DNA of 64,000 nt from positions 1,477,501-1,541,500 of the forward strand of contig NZ_CP135162.1 of NCBI RefSeq assembly GCF_001940165.2. Reading direction: 5' to 3'. The stretch comes from Roseburia sp. 831b. GTDB lineage: Bacteria > Bacillota > Clostridia > Lachnospirales > Lachnospiraceae. Under the pieces are notes generated by a model. That model did no database searches. It saw only the letters and a program-made list of their open reading frames with translations, and was not told the DNA's origin. A program made the position numbers and the translations under genes. This document shows, piece by piece, positions 4,359-61,341 of this stretch. The stretch's first letter is position 1; each line of letters begins with the position of its first letter.

Positions 4359-4375
4359 GTGTGTAATTTACACAC
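4359..4375. repeat. Palindrome near attL, possible integrase arm site
   Basis: GTGTGTAA-T-TTACACAC is an odd-length palindrome with 8-bp arms, overlapping the integrase stop codon and 60 bp from the attL core. A closely related 18-bp palindrome lies near attR. Both probably come from attP and may bind integrase or excisionase; this role is inferred from position. Confidence 0.5.
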
Positions 4376-5570
4376 TACATACACACTTTTTATCATGAAA
4401 ATCAATAATATTGTCCTTTACATCCGGAACAATTTTTTCAATATCATTTGATAATTTACTTTCCATAACATGTGTGTATAAATCCATTGTCATTTTAAGC
4501 GATGCATGACCCAAATACGATTGAACGACCTTTGGCGAAATACCATTTTCAAAACACCTTGTAGCAAACGTATGTCTAAAAGTATGACCGCTAAAAAAAT
4601 CAAATTCATCTTCCAGACTTCGTGTTGCATTGATTCGTTTAATTACCGAACGTATCGCATCGGCGTATATAACAGAATTTAATGGCGTATTGTACATTGT
4701 GACAAATAGATATTCGTTTTGCTCTTTTGGTCTCCGTTTTGAAACAATTTCTTTTAATTCAAACTGTTTTGCCAAATACTGCTTACAAATACTGTTTAAT
4801 GGAACCTTTCGATAACTCTGCTTTGTCTTTGGCTCTTCAACATGAAATGTCTTTCTTTCATCTGTTAAGTACTTCTGATACACTAATGTTTTATTTACAT
4901 CTATGAATCCATTTTCCATATCAACGTCACTTCTGGTCAAGGCAAAAAGTTCACCAGGTCTTAGTCCTGTATTGACAGCTACATTAAATAAATTATCATA
5001 GAATGTATTTTTACAAAATTCAAAAAATATATTCTGTTCTTCTAATGAAAGCGCCTTTGCCTTTATCTCTCTTTCTGAACGTATCTTCACTCCTGAACAT
5101 GGATTTTTAGACACAAGGTCATCTTCTAATGCCCTACTGAACATATCCGAAAGGATTATTTTAATTTTATTTTGTCTTTCATAATGGTAGCTGTTTTCAT
5201 ATGCAGTGTCAATCAATAATTGAATGTCAGACTTAACCATAGAATTTATCTTGCGATTTCCCATATAAGGTGATATATTTTTATTGTAAATATGAGTGTA
5301 TTCTCGAAGTGTATTCGGGCGTACACTTTTTTCTTTGTACAGACTCACCCAACGCTTAAACCACGAATCCAATGTAATATTGTCTCTAATACTTGTATAG
5401 TTTTCGTTTTCCGCAATAGCAATTGCATATTCTTTTCTTAGATCCGAAATCTTCTTATTATAAATCGTTTTCTGATTTCCAAATCTATCTTTGTATCTTG
5501 CTTGGTATAAACCATCCTTTCTCTGAGTAAATCCTACTCCTAATTCTTTTCCTTTTAAATCTTTTCCCAT
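4368..5570 (-). CDS. int: Phage integrase, tyrosine recombinase
   Basis: This 400-residue tyrosine recombinase catalyses integration between attP and the metA 3' end. It has an arm-binding domain (about residues 15-50), a SAM-like core-binding domain (about 60-155) and a catalytic domain. The visible catalytic residues are R204 (TGLRPGE), H329 and R332 (GHTFRHTFA), H355 (LGH) and the nucleophile Y365 (DLYTHV). It adjoins attL, and a small excisionase follows upstream. The start ATG leads MGKDLKGKELG. Confidence 0.97.
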   Translation of the reverse strand: MGKDLKGKELGVGFTQRKDGLYQARYKDRFGNQKTIYNKKISDLRKEYAIAIAENENYTSIRDNITLDSWFKRWVSLYKEKSVRPNTLREYTHIYNKNISPYMGNRKINSMVKSDIQLLIDTAYENSYHYERQNKIKIILSDMFSRALEDDLVSKNPCSGVKIRSEREIKAKALSLEEQNIFFEFCKNTFYDNLFNVAVNTGLRPGELFALTRSDVDMENGFIDVNKTLVYQKYLTDERKTFHVEEPKTKQSYRKVPLNSICKQYLAKQFELKEIVSKRRPKEQNEYLFVTMYNTPLNSVIYADAIRSVIKRINATRSLEDEFDFFSGHTFRHTFATRCFENGISPKVVQSYLGHASLKMTMDLYTHVMESKLSNDIEKIVPDVKDNIIDFHDKKCVCSV

Positions 5571-5863: not shown

Positions 5864-6862
5864 TTATGCTGCAGTATTTGCTTTTGTTCGGTCTAGCTCG
5901 ACATCATCACAGATATAGTATCGCATCGTCACATCTGTACTGCTGTGACCAAGCCTTTTCGAAACATACAAAATGTCATTCGTTCTTCGATATTCCCTTG
6001 ATGCAAAAGTTTTACGAAAAGAATGAACTGTTGCATTAAACTTGCAACCACCAGCAACAGCAATTTCCTTTGCCATCGCTTCTATTGTGTTTCTCGACAA
6101 CGCCACGTGTAATCCACGCTTTCCAACAAATACCGGTCCCGCAGAACGTTCCCCGATATAAACTTGAAGTGCTTGCTTACACCTCTCTGTCATAAAACAT
6201 GTTCTCCATTGCGATGTTTTTTCTCCCAAAATACGAACCTCTTTTCGTTGAAAATCTAAATTTTCAATCTTTAAATTTGAAATTTCTCCAACTCTTGGCC
6301 CAGCCGATAACATTAATTCAAACAAGGCATTTAACCTTAAATCATTTGAAATCGTTAATGATGCTTTTACAATTTCTTCATCGCTCAATCGCTCCTTTCG
6401 CTTTTGTGGAGCCTTGATTTTGTCAATGTCTCTAGCAACATCCTCTTCAATATGTTTCTTCCGATATGCCCAGGAAAAGAATGCTGACATATATCTTTGA
6501 ATCGTTGATGCATATGCCTTGCTGATTTTATCTCTATAAAGTCTCAATGCAATATAATCCATCACATCTTGGCCTGTGCATGTATGATAATTCAACCTTG
6601 TTTCTTCGAAAAACTTTTTTATTATAATAATGTATAGATTGATGGTGCTTTGCTTTCTGCCTGTGGCTGTCAAATCAATTATGTATCTCTTCAAAATCCA
6701 GTCATTATTATACACTTCATTTGATGGCAGCGTCTCACTTGCTGTCAGATTAATATTCATCAACTTCACGGTAATTATATTTTTTAACCTATCAATTCCA
6801 TCATTCGTTAAGTACCCCGTCATGCAAAAAACCACATCATTAATCAATTCTGTTTTTGTCAT
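5864..6862 (-). CDS. Second tyrosine recombinase, XerC/D-like
   Basis: This 332-residue site-specific recombinase has a SAM-like N-terminal domain (about residues 55-150) and a full catalytic set: R190 (AGPRVGE), H280 and R283 (VHSFRKTF), H306 (LGHSS) and tyrosine at 315/316 (MRYY). The frame is open to a TTG at 6910, but the ATG at 6862 follows AGGAGAAAG. A second integrase-type enzyme is unusual in one prophage. It could resolve multimers, be left from another element, or drive the tail-fibre inversion proposed at 32048-32943; its substrate cannot be read from sequence. Confidence 0.85.
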   Translation of the reverse strand: MTKTELINDVVFCMTGYLTNDGIDRLKNIITVKLMNINLTASETLPSNEVYNNDWILKRYIIDLTATGRKQSTINLYIIIIKKFFEETRLNYHTCTGQDVMDYIALRLYRDKISKAYASTIQRYMSAFFSWAYRKKHIEEDVARDIDKIKAPQKRKERLSDEEIVKASLTISNDLRLNALFELMLSAGPRVGEISNLKIENLDFQRKEVRILGEKTSQWRTCFMTERCKQALQVYIGERSAGPVFVGKRGLHVALSRNTIEAMAKEIAVAGGCKFNATVHSFRKTFASREYRRTNDILYVSKRLGHSSTDVTMRYYICDDVELDRTKANTAA

Positions 6863-12588: not shown

Positions 12589-13314
12589 TCACACTCCTTC
12601 CGGCTTCTCACACTTCTCAAACTCGATAACCCATACCCACGGCGATGCATCCCAACTGTAGCTGTCAAGGTCGGATTTCTTGATGGTGCTGTTCCAAAGG
12701 TTTTTCCACTCTTCCATTGCAATCTCCATGTCTCCGGCATGAACTGCCATAGAAGAAAGCCCCTCATTGCGAATACCGTCAATGGTAATCTCCTGCAACC
12801 GCTCAATTCTCACGTCCGTAACGCGGAGCCAGATTCGCGCCGCTTCTTTTGGCATAAATAATGATGGTTTCCACTCACCATTATGACTGAACCACTTATG
12901 CACAAATGTGTCATAGTCTAATCGGTTTATGGAATCTGTATTTCCATTTGCAAATTGCAACCTCACATCATCTCCGCCTGCTCTAAATCTTATGTCAGCA
13001 GTTGCTTCGTATCGGTGTGCTCGCCAACATTGCCATGTTTCCCGGACATACAGGATATCACCTGTGTGATATGGTGGATTCCATCGTTTACTCAATTCTT
13101 CCTCTGTAATATCGTTTGGAAGTTTAAATTCTTCTCCCCATATTTCATGTGCTGTTCTATTTGGATATCCCCATGTGTCAGAATCACTTCCTGCGAATGT
13201 GTAACACAGCCTTGATTTAGGCTGTGGCTTTACCAACCGTCTGGTGCAAGTCTTCCGTCCGTCCAGAATTGCCCGAACCATTTCTGTATTGAATAAAATC
13301 GGTTTAATTGCCAC
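12589..13314 (-). CDS. ASCH/PUA-like phage protein
   Basis: This 241-residue protein opens IKPILFNTEMVRAILDGRKTCTRR and contains GDILYVRETWQ and SLFMPKEAARIWLRVTDVRIERLQEI, the pattern of phage ASCH-like proteins with a PUA-type RNA-binding fold. Homologues are often annotated only as phage morphogenesis proteins. The start is GTG, overlapping the HNH gene by 11 bases. The precise role is unknown. Confidence 0.78.
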   Translation of the reverse strand: MAIKPILFNTEMVRAILDGRKTCTRRLVKPQPKSRLCYTFAGSDSDTWGYPNRTAHEIWGEEFKLPNDITEEELSKRWNPPYHTGDILYVRETWQCWRAHRYEATADIRFRAGGDDVRLQFANGNTDSINRLDYDTFVHKWFSHNGEWKPSLFMPKEAARIWLRVTDVRIERLQEITIDGIRNEGLSSMAVHAGDMEIAMEEWKNLWNSTIKKSDLDSYSWDASPWVWVIEFEKCEKPEGV

Positions 13315-13591
13315 CTATCACACCTGCCTTTCTTCTCGTTTCTGCCCTGTGTTTTGCATCATATCTGTTGTGGCATCTCTGGCATAACGCTCTAAGATTA
13401 CTGTAATCGCAATTTTCCGGTGTATGGTCTAAATGCGCTATTGTCAGGACAACTTTTGAGCCATTTTCGCGGATAGCATAATTCTCAATTCCACAAAATT
13501 CGCATTTATTGTCTGCCCGTTTAAGGATATCTTTTCGTATGTCTTTCCAGTTTGCCGGATATCTTTTCCGATTTTCTGGTTTAATTGGCAT
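13304..13591 (-). CDS. HNH endonuclease
   Basis: This 95-residue HNH nuclease has CEFCG, then TIAHLDHTPENCDYSNLRALCQRCHNRYD, the beta-beta-alpha-metal motif with paired zinc cysteines. The small size fits a stand-alone phage nuclease. Its distance from the terminase makes a packaging role less likely than a role in DNA processing or homing. It overlaps both neighbours by about 11 bases. Confidence 0.88.
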   Translation of the reverse strand: MPIKPENRKRYPANWKDIRKDILKRADNKCEFCGIENYAIRENGSKVVLTIAHLDHTPENCDYSNLRALCQRCHNRYDAKHRAETRRKAGVIGGN

Positions 13592-14018
13592 CTACACCAC
13601 CGCCTTTCACAATCTCGATTGCTTTGTCCATTCCGTAAATTCTTCCTCTATCAATGTCTGCTTCTGAAATTTTAAGTGTTTCCAGCATAAGGCTTTTTCT
13701 ATCTTCCAACTGCTGCACAACCTTATCCGGATCATAGGCGGTCGGATAATCACGCAAAGCGTAAATTACGTCTTGCATATCCTCCGCATCACTACGCATA
13801 ACCGACCTTTCAAACGCATCCGCATCAATTAATCTTCCCATCGTTCGCCCTCCTGTTCCATGCTTTTCCTCGCTTTCTTCCTGCAACCATCTAAGCCAAT
13901 CATTCTTGCTCATTGAAATATTACTACATTGCATAAATGCGTTCGCCAACTCATCATCCGTCATGCTCCGGATTTGGTCTGCATTGGTCTGTGGCCTTTC
14001 TTTATCAATTTTATCCAT
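13581..14018 (-). CDS. Hypothetical phage protein
   Basis: This 145-residue acidic protein contains MGRLIDADAFERSVMRS and QDVIYALRDYPTAYD, a segment seen in many small Clostridia phage proteins of unknown function. The ATG at 14018 follows GGAGG with a 7-base spacer, although the frame is open further upstream. Its start lies within the end of the preceding gene, in another frame (58-base overlap). Confidence 0.65.
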   Translation of the reverse strand: MDKIDKERPQTNADQIRSMTDDELANAFMQCSNISMSKNDWLRWLQEESEEKHGTGGRTMGRLIDADAFERSVMRSDAEDMQDVIYALRDYPTAYDPDKVVQQLEDRKSLMLETLKISEADIDRGRIYGMDKAIEIVKGGGVDAN

Positions 14019-14437
14019 GACTTTCCCTCCATTTCTTTCAGCTTGGCTTCGGCTTCCTCTCGGTCGAGAAAAATTGTTTCTCCTATTGCCGATATAGTTA
14101 CTTTGTTTTTGCACTTTTTTGTATCATTCGTAATTGTAGAAATCAGCAAATTCCTATAAAAATCCACAGACACTTCCGTAACTGTCGCTTCATAAATTCC
14201 ATACAGAAGTTTCTTCTCTTTTCTATTCATTCCGCTAATCATTATCTGCCAAACTGTATCTCCCACCTTGCACGGCAACCGCAGAAGCAATCCCTGTTCC
14301 TCGGCATCCTCGTAATTTCCCAATTTTTCAATAATTTCTGTCAGATTGCTCTCTGACGAATCTGATTTATGGGTTAAATTCAATGGCTTTTGGGGTAAAT
14401 GCTCTCCCACCGCACTTATCTTTGTTAATCTCTCCAC
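13961..14437 (-). CDS. Hypothetical phage protein
   Basis: This 158-residue protein has the common phage segment KLGNYEDAEEQGLLLRLPCKVGDTVW and a late IGETIFLDREEAEAKLKEME. The VGDTVW region suggests a small beta-barrel. Homologues are widespread in Lachnospiraceae prophages without known function. It is co-transcribed with the preceding small gene. Confidence 0.7.
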   Translation of the reverse strand: MERLTKISAVGEHLPQKPLNLTHKSDSSESNLTEIIEKLGNYEDAEEQGLLLRLPCKVGDTVWQIMISGMNRKEKKLLYGIYEATVTEVSVDFYRNLLISTITNDTKKCKNKVTISAIGETIFLDREEAEAKLKEMEGKSWIKLIKKGHRPMQTKSGA

Positions 14438-32047: not shown

Positions 32048-32575
32048 ATAAACGAAAGTTTAAAACAGGAATCCCAAAAGGTCGGAACATTGACCTCTCT
32101 TACAACAACAATCAGAACGTCAATTGTGAACGCAATTAATTCCTTAGTTGCAAGGATAGTTATACTGGAAAATGTAAATTCATGTGATGCACTTTTTTCA
32201 GTCGGAGCACATGGAGCACTTGCGACATCTGCATATTACACACTGACCTCAATCACAAAGAACTTTGGTTCAGACAACATTTATGTAGATAAATATGGTG
32301 CTATCATTTTTAAACTTGAAGGTCATTATATGCTTGACATAAATCTTGTGCTTGATAAAAGCTTTACTTCGATAAGCGCCAATATAAGCGTCCATCGGTA
32401 CGATTCGAAAGGTGGTTCAGACACCCTTATTGCAGAGGAATTTTTCTACTCAGCAAATAATGCGCACAGTGGTCATATTAACATTCTCGTACCTGTTAAA
32501 GAATATGGATTTATAAAAATCTTTGGTATCGGTAAAATAGCGGGCGGCTATATATCTTTACATAGAGTTGCTTAG
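32048..32575 (+). CDS. Silent alternative C-terminus of tail fibre
   Basis: The open frame runs from a stop at 32027 to 32575 and lacks a start codon with a ribosome site. It reads INESLKQESQKVGTLTSL..., a linker style typical of tail fibres (VGTLTSLTTTIRTSIVNAIN), then a beta-rich tip ending SLHRVA. After inversion at the 16-bp repeats it would fuse in frame to the N-terminal part of the fibre at 32944-33129. In the present orientation it is silent. Confidence 0.75.
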   Translation: MNESLKQESQKVGTLTSLTTTIRTSIVNAINSLVARIVILENVNSCDALFSVGAHGALATSAYYTLTSITKNFGSDNIYVDKYGAIIFKLEGHYMLDINLVLDKSFTSISANISVHRYDSKGGSDTLIAEEFFYSANNAHSGHINILVPVKEYGFIKIFGIGKIAGGYISLHRVA

Positions 32576-32943
32576 GTCTACTCTTTCGCCCAGGTCAGCC
32601 AAAAACTCATTGTGGCACTGCTTGTTAATCCGTCAATGATGAGTGTGTAACGACCGTCATTTCGTTTATTTATACCTTTAACGAAGTAACTGGAATCATC
32701 TCTGACAGTATGCGCTGATAGTAATGTATATCCTTCTTTATTAACTATTGCATAGTTTGTATTAGTCGAAGCCGTGTACAACTCCATAATGAGCTTTTCC
32801 TGCCGGGTATTAACTCTTTTTTGAGCATCGGTGTGGATGTCGTCAATTGTCGAGCCACCGACAGCGTTGACATTTTGTTCTGAAATATTAGAAGTTGTGA
32901 TAGCAGTCGAGGCGTCTTGCTTCTTACTTAAACTTTCGTTTAT
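32048..32943. repeat. Invertible tail-fibre segment bounded by 16-bp inverted repeats
   Basis: ATAAACGAAAGTTTAA at 32048-32063 is repeated exactly in reverse orientation at 32928-32943. Each copy encodes Ile-Asn-Glu-Ser-Leu in the reading frame of the adjoining fibre sequence. The 896-bp segment holds two tail-to-tail C-termini, the expressed one and a start-less one, with two bases between their stops. The repeat contains TAAAC-GAAA-GTTTA dyad symmetry, as expected of a recombinase site. Confidence 0.8.
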
Positions 32944-33129
32944 CTCATTGACTTTTCCATTCGTTGCATTAATATCAGCACCACCAAAAGGATCTCCCTC
33001 CTGCGTATACTCGGTCGCATCCTCAAACGAGACTGTTCCATCATCATTTTGAATCATCCTGAATTTTCTTTTTTCATTCTTTGACGTATCCAGCACATCA
33101 TCTTTGTAATTTGTCTTTAAATCTGCCAT
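32578..33129 (-). CDS. Tail fibre / receptor-binding protein
   Basis: This 183-residue protein begins MADLKTNYKDDVLDTSKNEK and has a connector (DDGTVSFEDATEYTQEGDPFGG, then ATNGKVNEINESLSKKQDAS) typical of the last tail gene in Clostridia siphophages. The C-terminal tip probably contacts the host surface. The INESL codons are the inversion repeat, so residues from about 63 on can be exchanged. It lies last among the tail genes, before the lysis cassette. Confidence 0.8.
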   Translation of the reverse strand: MADLKTNYKDDVLDTSKNEKRKFRMIQNDDGTVSFEDATEYTQEGDPFGGADINATNGKVNEINESLSKKQDASTAITTSNISEQNVNAVGGSTIDDIHTDAQKRVNTRQEKLIMELYTASTNTNYAIVNKEGYTLLSAHTVRDDSSYFVKGINKRNDGRYTLIIDGLTSSATMSFWLTWAKE

Positions 33130-61036: not shown

Positions 61037-61261
61037 ATGACAGGAACAATCAAAATCAATGGAGCATACGGCGCTAAAATTGGAAATATACAGGTATTTA
61101 CTTATGAGGGAGCTGTTAATGCCTATAAAAATTTTTGCAAGCTCTTTAATCGTGACATGTCAATTGAGGCATCTGTAGTTCAGGATGCAGCCGCCGAAGA
61201 TATGCACAAAATTGGCTTCAGTTGGGAAGAAATCGAAGCTATTGAATTATTTGTATCTTAA
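61037..61261 (+). CDS. Small hypothetical protein
   Basis: This 74-residue protein starts MTGTIKINGAYGAKIGNIQV and ends FSWEEIEAIELFVS. The ATG at 61037 has GAGGG seven bases upstream. The fold looks mixed alpha/beta. Second gene of the repressor-controlled operon. Not recognised. Confidence 0.65.
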   Translation: MTGTIKINGAYGAKIGNIQVFTYEGAVNAYKNFCKLFNRDMSIEASVVQDAAAEDMHKIGFSWEEIEAIELFVS

Positions 61262-61267
61262 GCCGAA

Positions 61268-61313
61268 ACGCTCCACTCCGGAGCGTCAGCCGCGGACCGG
61301 TCGCCGTGGCTCT
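61268..61313 (+). repeat. Two GC-rich hairpins after 61037-61261
   Basis: ACGCTCC-ACTCC-GGAGCGT (7-bp stem) and AGCCGCGG-ACCGGTCG-CCGTGGCT (8-bp stem) lie back to back. They lack a U-run, so simple termination is unlikely. They may protect or separate mRNA segments. Confidence 0.5.
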
Positions 61314-61341
61314 GATGATGGCAGACCAGAAAGGATTAAAA

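Follow-up and report, generated by a model that had tools for sequence, protein, structure and literature searches.

Does the tip of a prophage tail fibre in Roseburia sp. 831b alternate between two forms by inversion of a short DNA segment, and, if so, which enzyme turns the segment over? The locus that raises this question lies in a stretch of 64,000 nucleotides, referred to below as the window. Comparison with PHROGs and Pfam identified the window as a prophage region encoding a portal, a major head protein, a tape measure protein, a holin and a glycosyl-hydrolase endolysin, together with a RecT-like protein, a DnaB-like helicase, an anti-repressor and an integrase. The genes for the tape measure, holin and endolysin are located near the fibre gene, in the tail module. 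The fibre gene had no PHROG or Pfam match of its own and no relatives of the fibre were found in named phages; the name 'fibre' was given because of its position in the tail module, its relatives, and a weak tail-fibre match of the alternative tip. A neighbouring 675-aa protein had no confirmed relatives in viral contigs. The window also contains a match to a type II hammerhead ribozyme (Rfam RF02276) at 61261-61330 on the + strand, with 54.5 bits for a gathering threshold of 37. The features on which the analysis bears are the following.

4368-5570, - strand: prophage integrase, distinct from the proposed tip recombinase (Pfam Phage_integrase and Phage_int_SAM_3, N-terminal Integrase_DNA domain)
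5864-6862, - strand: proposed tip recombinase, an Xer-like tyrosine recombinase of 332 aa (Pfam, structures, residues, co-occurrence)
32048-32063, + strand: proposed left crossover site (exact inverted repeat; consensus from relatives), made up of TAAA at 32049-32052, a proposed 6-bp overlap CGAAAG at 32053-32058 and TTTA at 32059-32062
32048-32575, + strand: silent alternative tip, an open frame of 175 codons counted from the repeat, without stem or evident start
32578-33129, - strand: tail-fibre gene in its present state (ORF), encoding a probable receptor-binding protein of 183 aa
32578-32943, - strand: present tip, part of the tail-fibre gene
32928-32943, - strand: proposed right crossover site, the same sequence inverted, inside the fibre gene (exact repeat, in frame)
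32944-33129, - strand: constant stem, part of the tail-fibre gene

The two copies of a perfect 16-bp inverted repeat (ATAAACGAAAGTTTAA), at 32048-32063 (+) and 32928-32943 (-), delimit 896 bp from end to end. The anatomy of this segment largely agreed with the original prediction, which had been made by reading the window unaided by databases. The repeat copies are exact, both encode Ile-Asn-Glu-Ser-Leu (INESL) in frame, and the frames meet tail to tail, their stops (both TAG) being separated by the two bases GT. In-silico inversion of the segment left the frame unbroken and produced a fibre with the other tip, as had been anticipated. The frame on the opposite strand had been described as 171 codons without a start; its length was found to be 175 codons, while its lack of a stem was borne out, since upstream of the repeat it stays open for only six codons before a stop. 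The silent tip had a weak match to a PHROG tail-fibre profile (phrog_25848, E 0.0005, residues 2-49); apart from its own genome, none of 397 family genomes contained a relative of this tip, and none was confirmed in viral contigs.

Repeat length taken alone is weak evidence and not significant: among 150 versions of the 64-kb window obtained by dinucleotide shuffling, 16 contained an inverted repeat of at least 16 bp within 4 kb. What gives the repeat weight is its position within the fibre gene and the evidence of related elements, not its length. The silent frame itself contains no stop, as against 7 to 14 in each of the other five frames there, and it stayed open in none of 20,000 single-base shuffles. 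A search of the 3.37-Mb genome for the 16-mer, with at most one mismatch, returned four places, which are the window pair and an inverted pair belonging to a second prophage.

This second pair (C1:1014522-1015356) lies in frame in the fibre gene of the other prophage, here called P2, and the tip of that fibre again meets a stemless tip tail to tail. P2 also encodes a recombinase (C1:997251-998210) about 50% identical to that of the window (5864-6862), both proteins belonging to one tyrosine recombinase family. The present tips of the two fibres are 75% identical over 130 aa, and their stems gave no BLAST match to each other. From recombinase to tip cassette, P2 spans C1:997251-1015356 (L015, L016). 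The prophage has only one other record (L018), which matches it at 100% identity over 10.8 kb without any change of orientation and probably stems from the same strain. As the chromosome carries two inverted pairs of identical overlap, recombination could also take place between the pairs.

The distribution of such cassettes was analysed among 21 element sequences, reduced to 20 by removal of one duplicate. The near-identical prophages G315 and G681, from two strains, were counted apart, and duplicate records were counted once (L051 and L222 for G314; L018 and L046). A tail-to-tail site pair was found in half of the elements (10 of 20: the window, P2, G250, G264, G308, G302, G303, G299, G306c and G681), with no stem on the contig in the case of G306c. 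Five further contigs (G313, G315, G306a, G306b and G316) end 49 to 125 bp past an in-frame site, within an open stem-like frame, these sites having been selected visually from the five highest matrix scores per element. A lone in-frame site with no opposing tip was present in G307, and the site was absent from four short contigs of 8.1 to 17.7 kb (G006, G310, G311 and G312). The number of tips varied, G264 having four in two cassettes and the window one inverted pair. The recombinase gene was situated 15.6 to 26.1 kb from the cassette in nine of the ten pair-bearing elements, and 25 kb from it in the window, so that the link between enzyme and switch is one of co-occurrence and not of adjacency. 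Only in G306c is a family member sited among tips. The region concerned (L081, 12324-14671) has a layout reminiscent of the Rin shufflon discussed below, with the distant recombinase at 13286-14230 among three stemless tips and a TAATAA overlap.

Six records shared a stem or tip piece and had no cassette beside it (G300, G301 and G416-G419; L020, L021 and L224-L227). In five of them, no match to the recombinase profile was found at E <= 0.001, and the sixth, G419, gave three weak matches (best E 3e-13). Such records may be fragments, G418 for instance being 12 kb long, and the site check for G300 and G301 consisted of one pattern search and a repeat scan. A contrary case was provided by G415 (L223), where a good in-frame fibre site was accompanied by only a weak recombinase match (1e-8) on a 33-kb fragment ending 113 bp past the site start. 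A scan of 393 genomes of the order yielded one new carrier of the recombinase, G681, for which the presence of a cassette was predicted out of sample: one tail-to-tail pair was found, with a score of 39.3, at 17 kb from the recombinase.

Exact inverted repeats of at least 11 bases had given the pairs of the window, P2, G250, G264 (two pairs), G308, G302 and G299, and 9-base words beginning with TAAAC or TAAAT added those of G303 and G306c. The sites fit the form TAAA-YRNNAR-TTTA, the second half being looser. The stretch identical in every one of eleven pairs corresponds to columns 5-10, that is, to the six bases between the half-sites, and these are best read as the putative overlap of a tyrosine recombinase. 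Overlaps differ among phages (CGAAAG, CAGCAA, TGGCAA, CGGCAG, TAATAA, TGAGAA and TAGCAA). The matrix scans demand six identical middle bases, and identity within pairs is therefore partly a search condition; the observation is its narrowing to columns 5-10. In translation, the site reads mostly L/I/V-N-x-x-L/F/I, one copy in G302 reading LTSNL. Its form, TAA-6 bp-TTA, resembles the core of dif.

As these elements themselves supplied the site matrix, it was assessed by leave-one-out and out-of-sample tests. Leave-one-out searches combining the site matrix with the tail-to-tail rule gave scores of at least 21.0 for the nine elements tested, and a control on 119 other viral loci (1.12 Mb) gave one pair, with a score of 12.9. 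The control loci, presumed unrelated, came from a 16-mer scan of viral contigs that returned at least 120 loci; 119 were used, and L154, which is P2, was left out. Read backwards, the matrix had one match in 20 sequences, in G306c and at the same place, the site being nearly palindromic.

In Murimonas intestini (G250), 17 extra copies of TAAACAGCAATWTW (L083-L101 except L094 and L095; 0 in the backward control) were considered as further cassettes, an interpretation dropped once their frames were read. Most of these copies, which lie outside the cassette, end what looks like a dispersed host repeat, and the last bases of this repeat equal the phage crossover site. One copy lies in a long host-like frame and several are near contig ends. 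No Rfam match was obtained in the five loci tested.

Regarding the enzyme, the original prediction had seen no serine invertase and had proposed the second tyrosine recombinase, at 5864-6862, as a candidate. The genome contains 10 matches to the serine recombinase domain (PF00239), none of them in the window; one, in a 503-aa frame, lies 12 kb from the P2 recombinase. It also contains six further, weaker tyrosine recombinase matches. The candidate itself was strengthened, its relatives co-occurring with cassettes and P2 carrying a member of the same family. The protein has a Pfam Phage_integrase match and only a sub-threshold SAM-like match, and no match to an arm-binding domain. The nearest solved structures are XerA, then an XerC-like protein and XerD. 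XerA is also its best profile, below cut-off like the others (NCBIfam bits against cut-off: XerA 151/220, XerC 97.5/335, XerD 92.5/330). Residues R190, K215, H280 and R283 (as H280-x-x-R283), H306 and Y315 are invariant in five family members, and we take them to be the catalytic residues. All except K215 align with the same residue in XerA and XerD; K215 aligns with a lysine in XerA only.

This recombinase family is rare. Members were found at E <= 1e-60 in four of 299 family genomes and, with an alignment as query at E <= 1e-90, in two of 393 order genomes and three of 397 family genomes, the latter two draws overlapping and the counts including the centre genomes. Nine matches were obtained in a genome-contig scan: four are titled Lachnospiraceae, two come from uncultured bacteria and one is a distant Traorella sequence. 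The remaining two belong to Murimonas intestini DSM 26524, whose record is flagged UNVERIFIED_CONTAM, and to Parablautia intestinalis D8-82, both Lachnospiraceae according to NCBI taxonomy. A single-sequence search with the recombinase gave no confirmed relatives in viral contigs, where the alignment search found them. Identity with named phages was at most 28.0% among the matches listed (40 of 255). The more distant members include those of G299 (E 3.7e-47) and G306c (E 1.8e-42), G299 having entered the sample by its tip before it was found to carry a recombinase of the family; the distant matches L044 (27% identity) and L054 (30%) were left out. The recombinase copy of G315 (L061, 17387-18376) has an in-frame TGA, and none was reported in the near-identical G681 prophage.

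Site-specific tip switching is well supported by the P2 cassette, the site pairs in 10 of the 20 elements, the successful prediction in G681 and the difference between the tips of G315 and G681 described below, all of which favour the invertible fibre tip originally proposed. We therefore read the 896-bp segment as a probable two-state tail-fibre tip switch, operated by the phage-encoded, armless Xer-like tyrosine recombinase at 5864-6862, and give this reading a probability of about 0.88. The recombinase would bind the half-sites TAAA...TTTA of the 16-bp site and cut around the putative 6-bp overlap, CGAAAG in this case. It would then synapse two sites of equal overlap and exchange strands, which in an inverted pair would result in a flip and a swap of tips. 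Two states are expected: the constant stem joined to the present tip, or the same stem joined to the tip that is now silent. Either orientation would give an unbroken fibre because the site encodes a short linker. The switch may still be active, with both orientations present among cells of the strain, and the tips would presumably bind receptors. Exchange could also involve sites on separate prophages or in an orphan cassette and, if repeated, would bring stems and tips into new combinations.

Three other explanations have to be weighed against this reading. The second frame could be an independent gene on the + strand, in which case the repeat would be a chance occurrence or a remnant; TTG at 32090 is indeed taken as a start in the ORF list (32090-32575), and a repeat of such length is not rare by chance in the window. 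This can hardly be reconciled with the six codons by which the frame is open upstream of the repeat, with tail-to-tail frames at comparable sites in 10 elements, or with the existence of homologous tips that are joined to a stem in one element but not in another, and it was rejected on these grounds. An enzyme acting in trans, be it a host Xer protein or one of the serine recombinases of the genome, may instead invert the segment, the protein at 5864-6862 serving the prophage otherwise. The 10 PF00239 matches of the genome, including the 503-aa frame at 12 kb from the P2 recombinase, its six weaker tyrosine recombinase matches and the 25 kb between the window recombinase gene and the switch would all be compatible with such a scheme. 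It is nonetheless unlikely, given the lack of PF00239 matches in the window, the cassettes that accompany the recombinase family in 10 of 20 elements, and the cassette-less records, five of six being devoid of a recombinase match at E <= 0.001 and the sixth having weak ones only.

A somewhat different possibility is that the cassette was inverted in the past and is now locked in this strain. A single orientation was seen for both prophages of the Roseburia genome, as a fossil cassette would have it. The in-frame TGA in the G315 recombinase copy further suggests that loss may happen. In the window, by contrast, the recombinase is full length with the conserved residues of its family in place, the two sites match exactly and no stop interrupts the silent frame, which makes a locked cassette improbable. 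The tip switch operated by the prophage's own recombinase accordingly remains the preferred reading.

Besides the proposed flip in place, stems and tips have been reassorted in nature at junctions that fall within the site. An alignment of 18.9 kb between the IMG/VR prophage G315 and the prophage of G681 shows 99.6% identity and ends at the site, after which the two tips differ; further blocks match at 88-98.5%. The 125 bp of G315 from the site on had no BLAST match in the G681 region and are identical to those of G313, a second prophage under the same IMG isolate number, which has a different stem. Taken together, the G315/G681 and G315/G313 comparisons place the crossover within 15 bases (TAAATGGCAATTTAA). 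The sharing visible is limited to 125 bp, since the G313 and G315 records end 125 bp into the shared tip; such ends fit an assembly stopping at a shared repeat, as assemblies do. The same pattern was observed for G306a and G306b, contigs of one MAG, with 49 bp visible before the records end in the tip. In G313, G315, G306a, G306b, G316 and the record behind L223, the assemblies stop 49-125 bp past the site start, and contig ends of this kind may help to find shared or mixed tips elsewhere.

Related tips were also found with a stem in one element and stemless in another. The tips of the window and P2 are 58% and 68% identical, respectively, to a tip of G299 over 31 aa, that of G303 is 45% identical over 94 aa to the tip at 14294 in G306c, and that of G316 is 54% identical over 39 aa to one of G306c. 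These similarities begin at the site, or seven residues after it in P2. An orphan cassette composed of two stemless tips between inverted sites occurs in Parablautia intestinalis D8-82 (G264, L033:6592-7152); it has the same overlap as the fibre cassette, which lies about 22 kb away in the same IMG/VR prophage record. By eye, the frame beside this orphan cassette looks ParB-like.

Exchange of tips between prophages is a likely explanation of these sequence relationships. Whether Lachnospiraceae prophages share a pool of tips defined by the site, in which recombinases with matching 6-bp overlaps both flip tips and move them between co-resident prophages or from orphan cassettes, is a broader proposal for which we consider the odds about even. 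If true, the prophages of one cell would be a mutual reservoir of receptor-binding ends, comparable to an integron cassette pool. Near-identical prophages bearing different tips, along with a tip start common to two prophages from one isolate, would imply that prophages in one cell can exchange receptor-binding tips site-specifically; this aspect of phage mosaicism is directly testable. The original prediction did not include the other cassette of the genome, the site consensus, the stemless cassettes or the signs of tip exchange between prophages.

Inversion systems of the Gin/Cin/Min type depend on an enhancer bound by Fis. Gin of Mu, Cin of P1 and Min of p15B are serine recombinases that switch fibre C-termini by inversion (PMC6109161). 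The window system resembles them in having two or more fibre C-termini, in the proposed inversion and in a crossover site inside coding sequence, but no serine recombinase was found in the window or beside the segment. More generally, inversions in prophages, located around structural genes and above all those for tail fibres, have been described in four Proteobacteria species (PMC5903667). The closest family by sequence to the protein at 5864-6862 is that of XerC, XerD and XerA, from which it is set apart by scores below the NCBIfam cut-offs and by its presumed role on fibre cassettes.

In the open-access literature searched, phage tyrosine invertases acting on receptor-binding proteins were found described only for Bifidobacterium and Eggerthella prophages. 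No report of a Lachnospiraceae system, or of its tip exchange between prophages, was recognised in that literature. Lachnospiraceae would represent a further host group with such invertases, and the crossover site with its overlap can be searched for in other genomes. In clade 1 of Eggerthella lenta prophages, a Rin-type locus has been described with an 8-bp repeat (ttccgtat), an adjacent recombinase and several tandem tips (PMC8778435). Judging from this description, a tyrosine recombinase, variable tips and a short repeat inside a constant gene are common to both systems, whereas the repeat, the adjacency of the recombinase and the tandem arrangement of tips distinguish the Eggerthella locus.

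The closest precedent in layout is a second locus of the tRNA-Met-integrated bifidophages 689b-1 and Bb423phi2, a segment of about 500 bp that is inverted between the two phages at an 8-bp site, CAGGGTTA (PMC6109161). This locus comprises a small gene together with the 3' end of the adjacent one; its halves are dissimilar, it is not flanked by a recombinase gene, and the authors suggest an enzyme acting in trans (PMC6109161). A remote enzyme is less novel because of this locus; in our case, a candidate enzyme is present in the same prophage and tied to the cassette by co-occurrence. The Rin shufflon of Bifidobacterium prophages involves an armless, XerD-like phage tyrosine recombinase, distinct from the integrase, that acts on the C-termini of receptor-binding proteins, and variant orientations were seen in reads; rin adjoins the receptor-binding protein locus, which has several tips and 11-bp sites (TTCCCTAACCC) (PMC6109161). 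As far as that account extends, the two systems share an armless phage tyrosine recombinase separate from the integrase and C-termini that are, or in our case would be, swapped at short in-gene sites. They differ in that the window enzyme is encoded 25 kb from the fibre locus of the same prophage instead of flanking it, in the single inverted pair with two tips tail to tail instead of several tips, and in the site, TAAA-YRNNAR-TTTA instead of the rix site. Compared by description, the window system works like Rin, while in site and layout it falls outside the Rin family.
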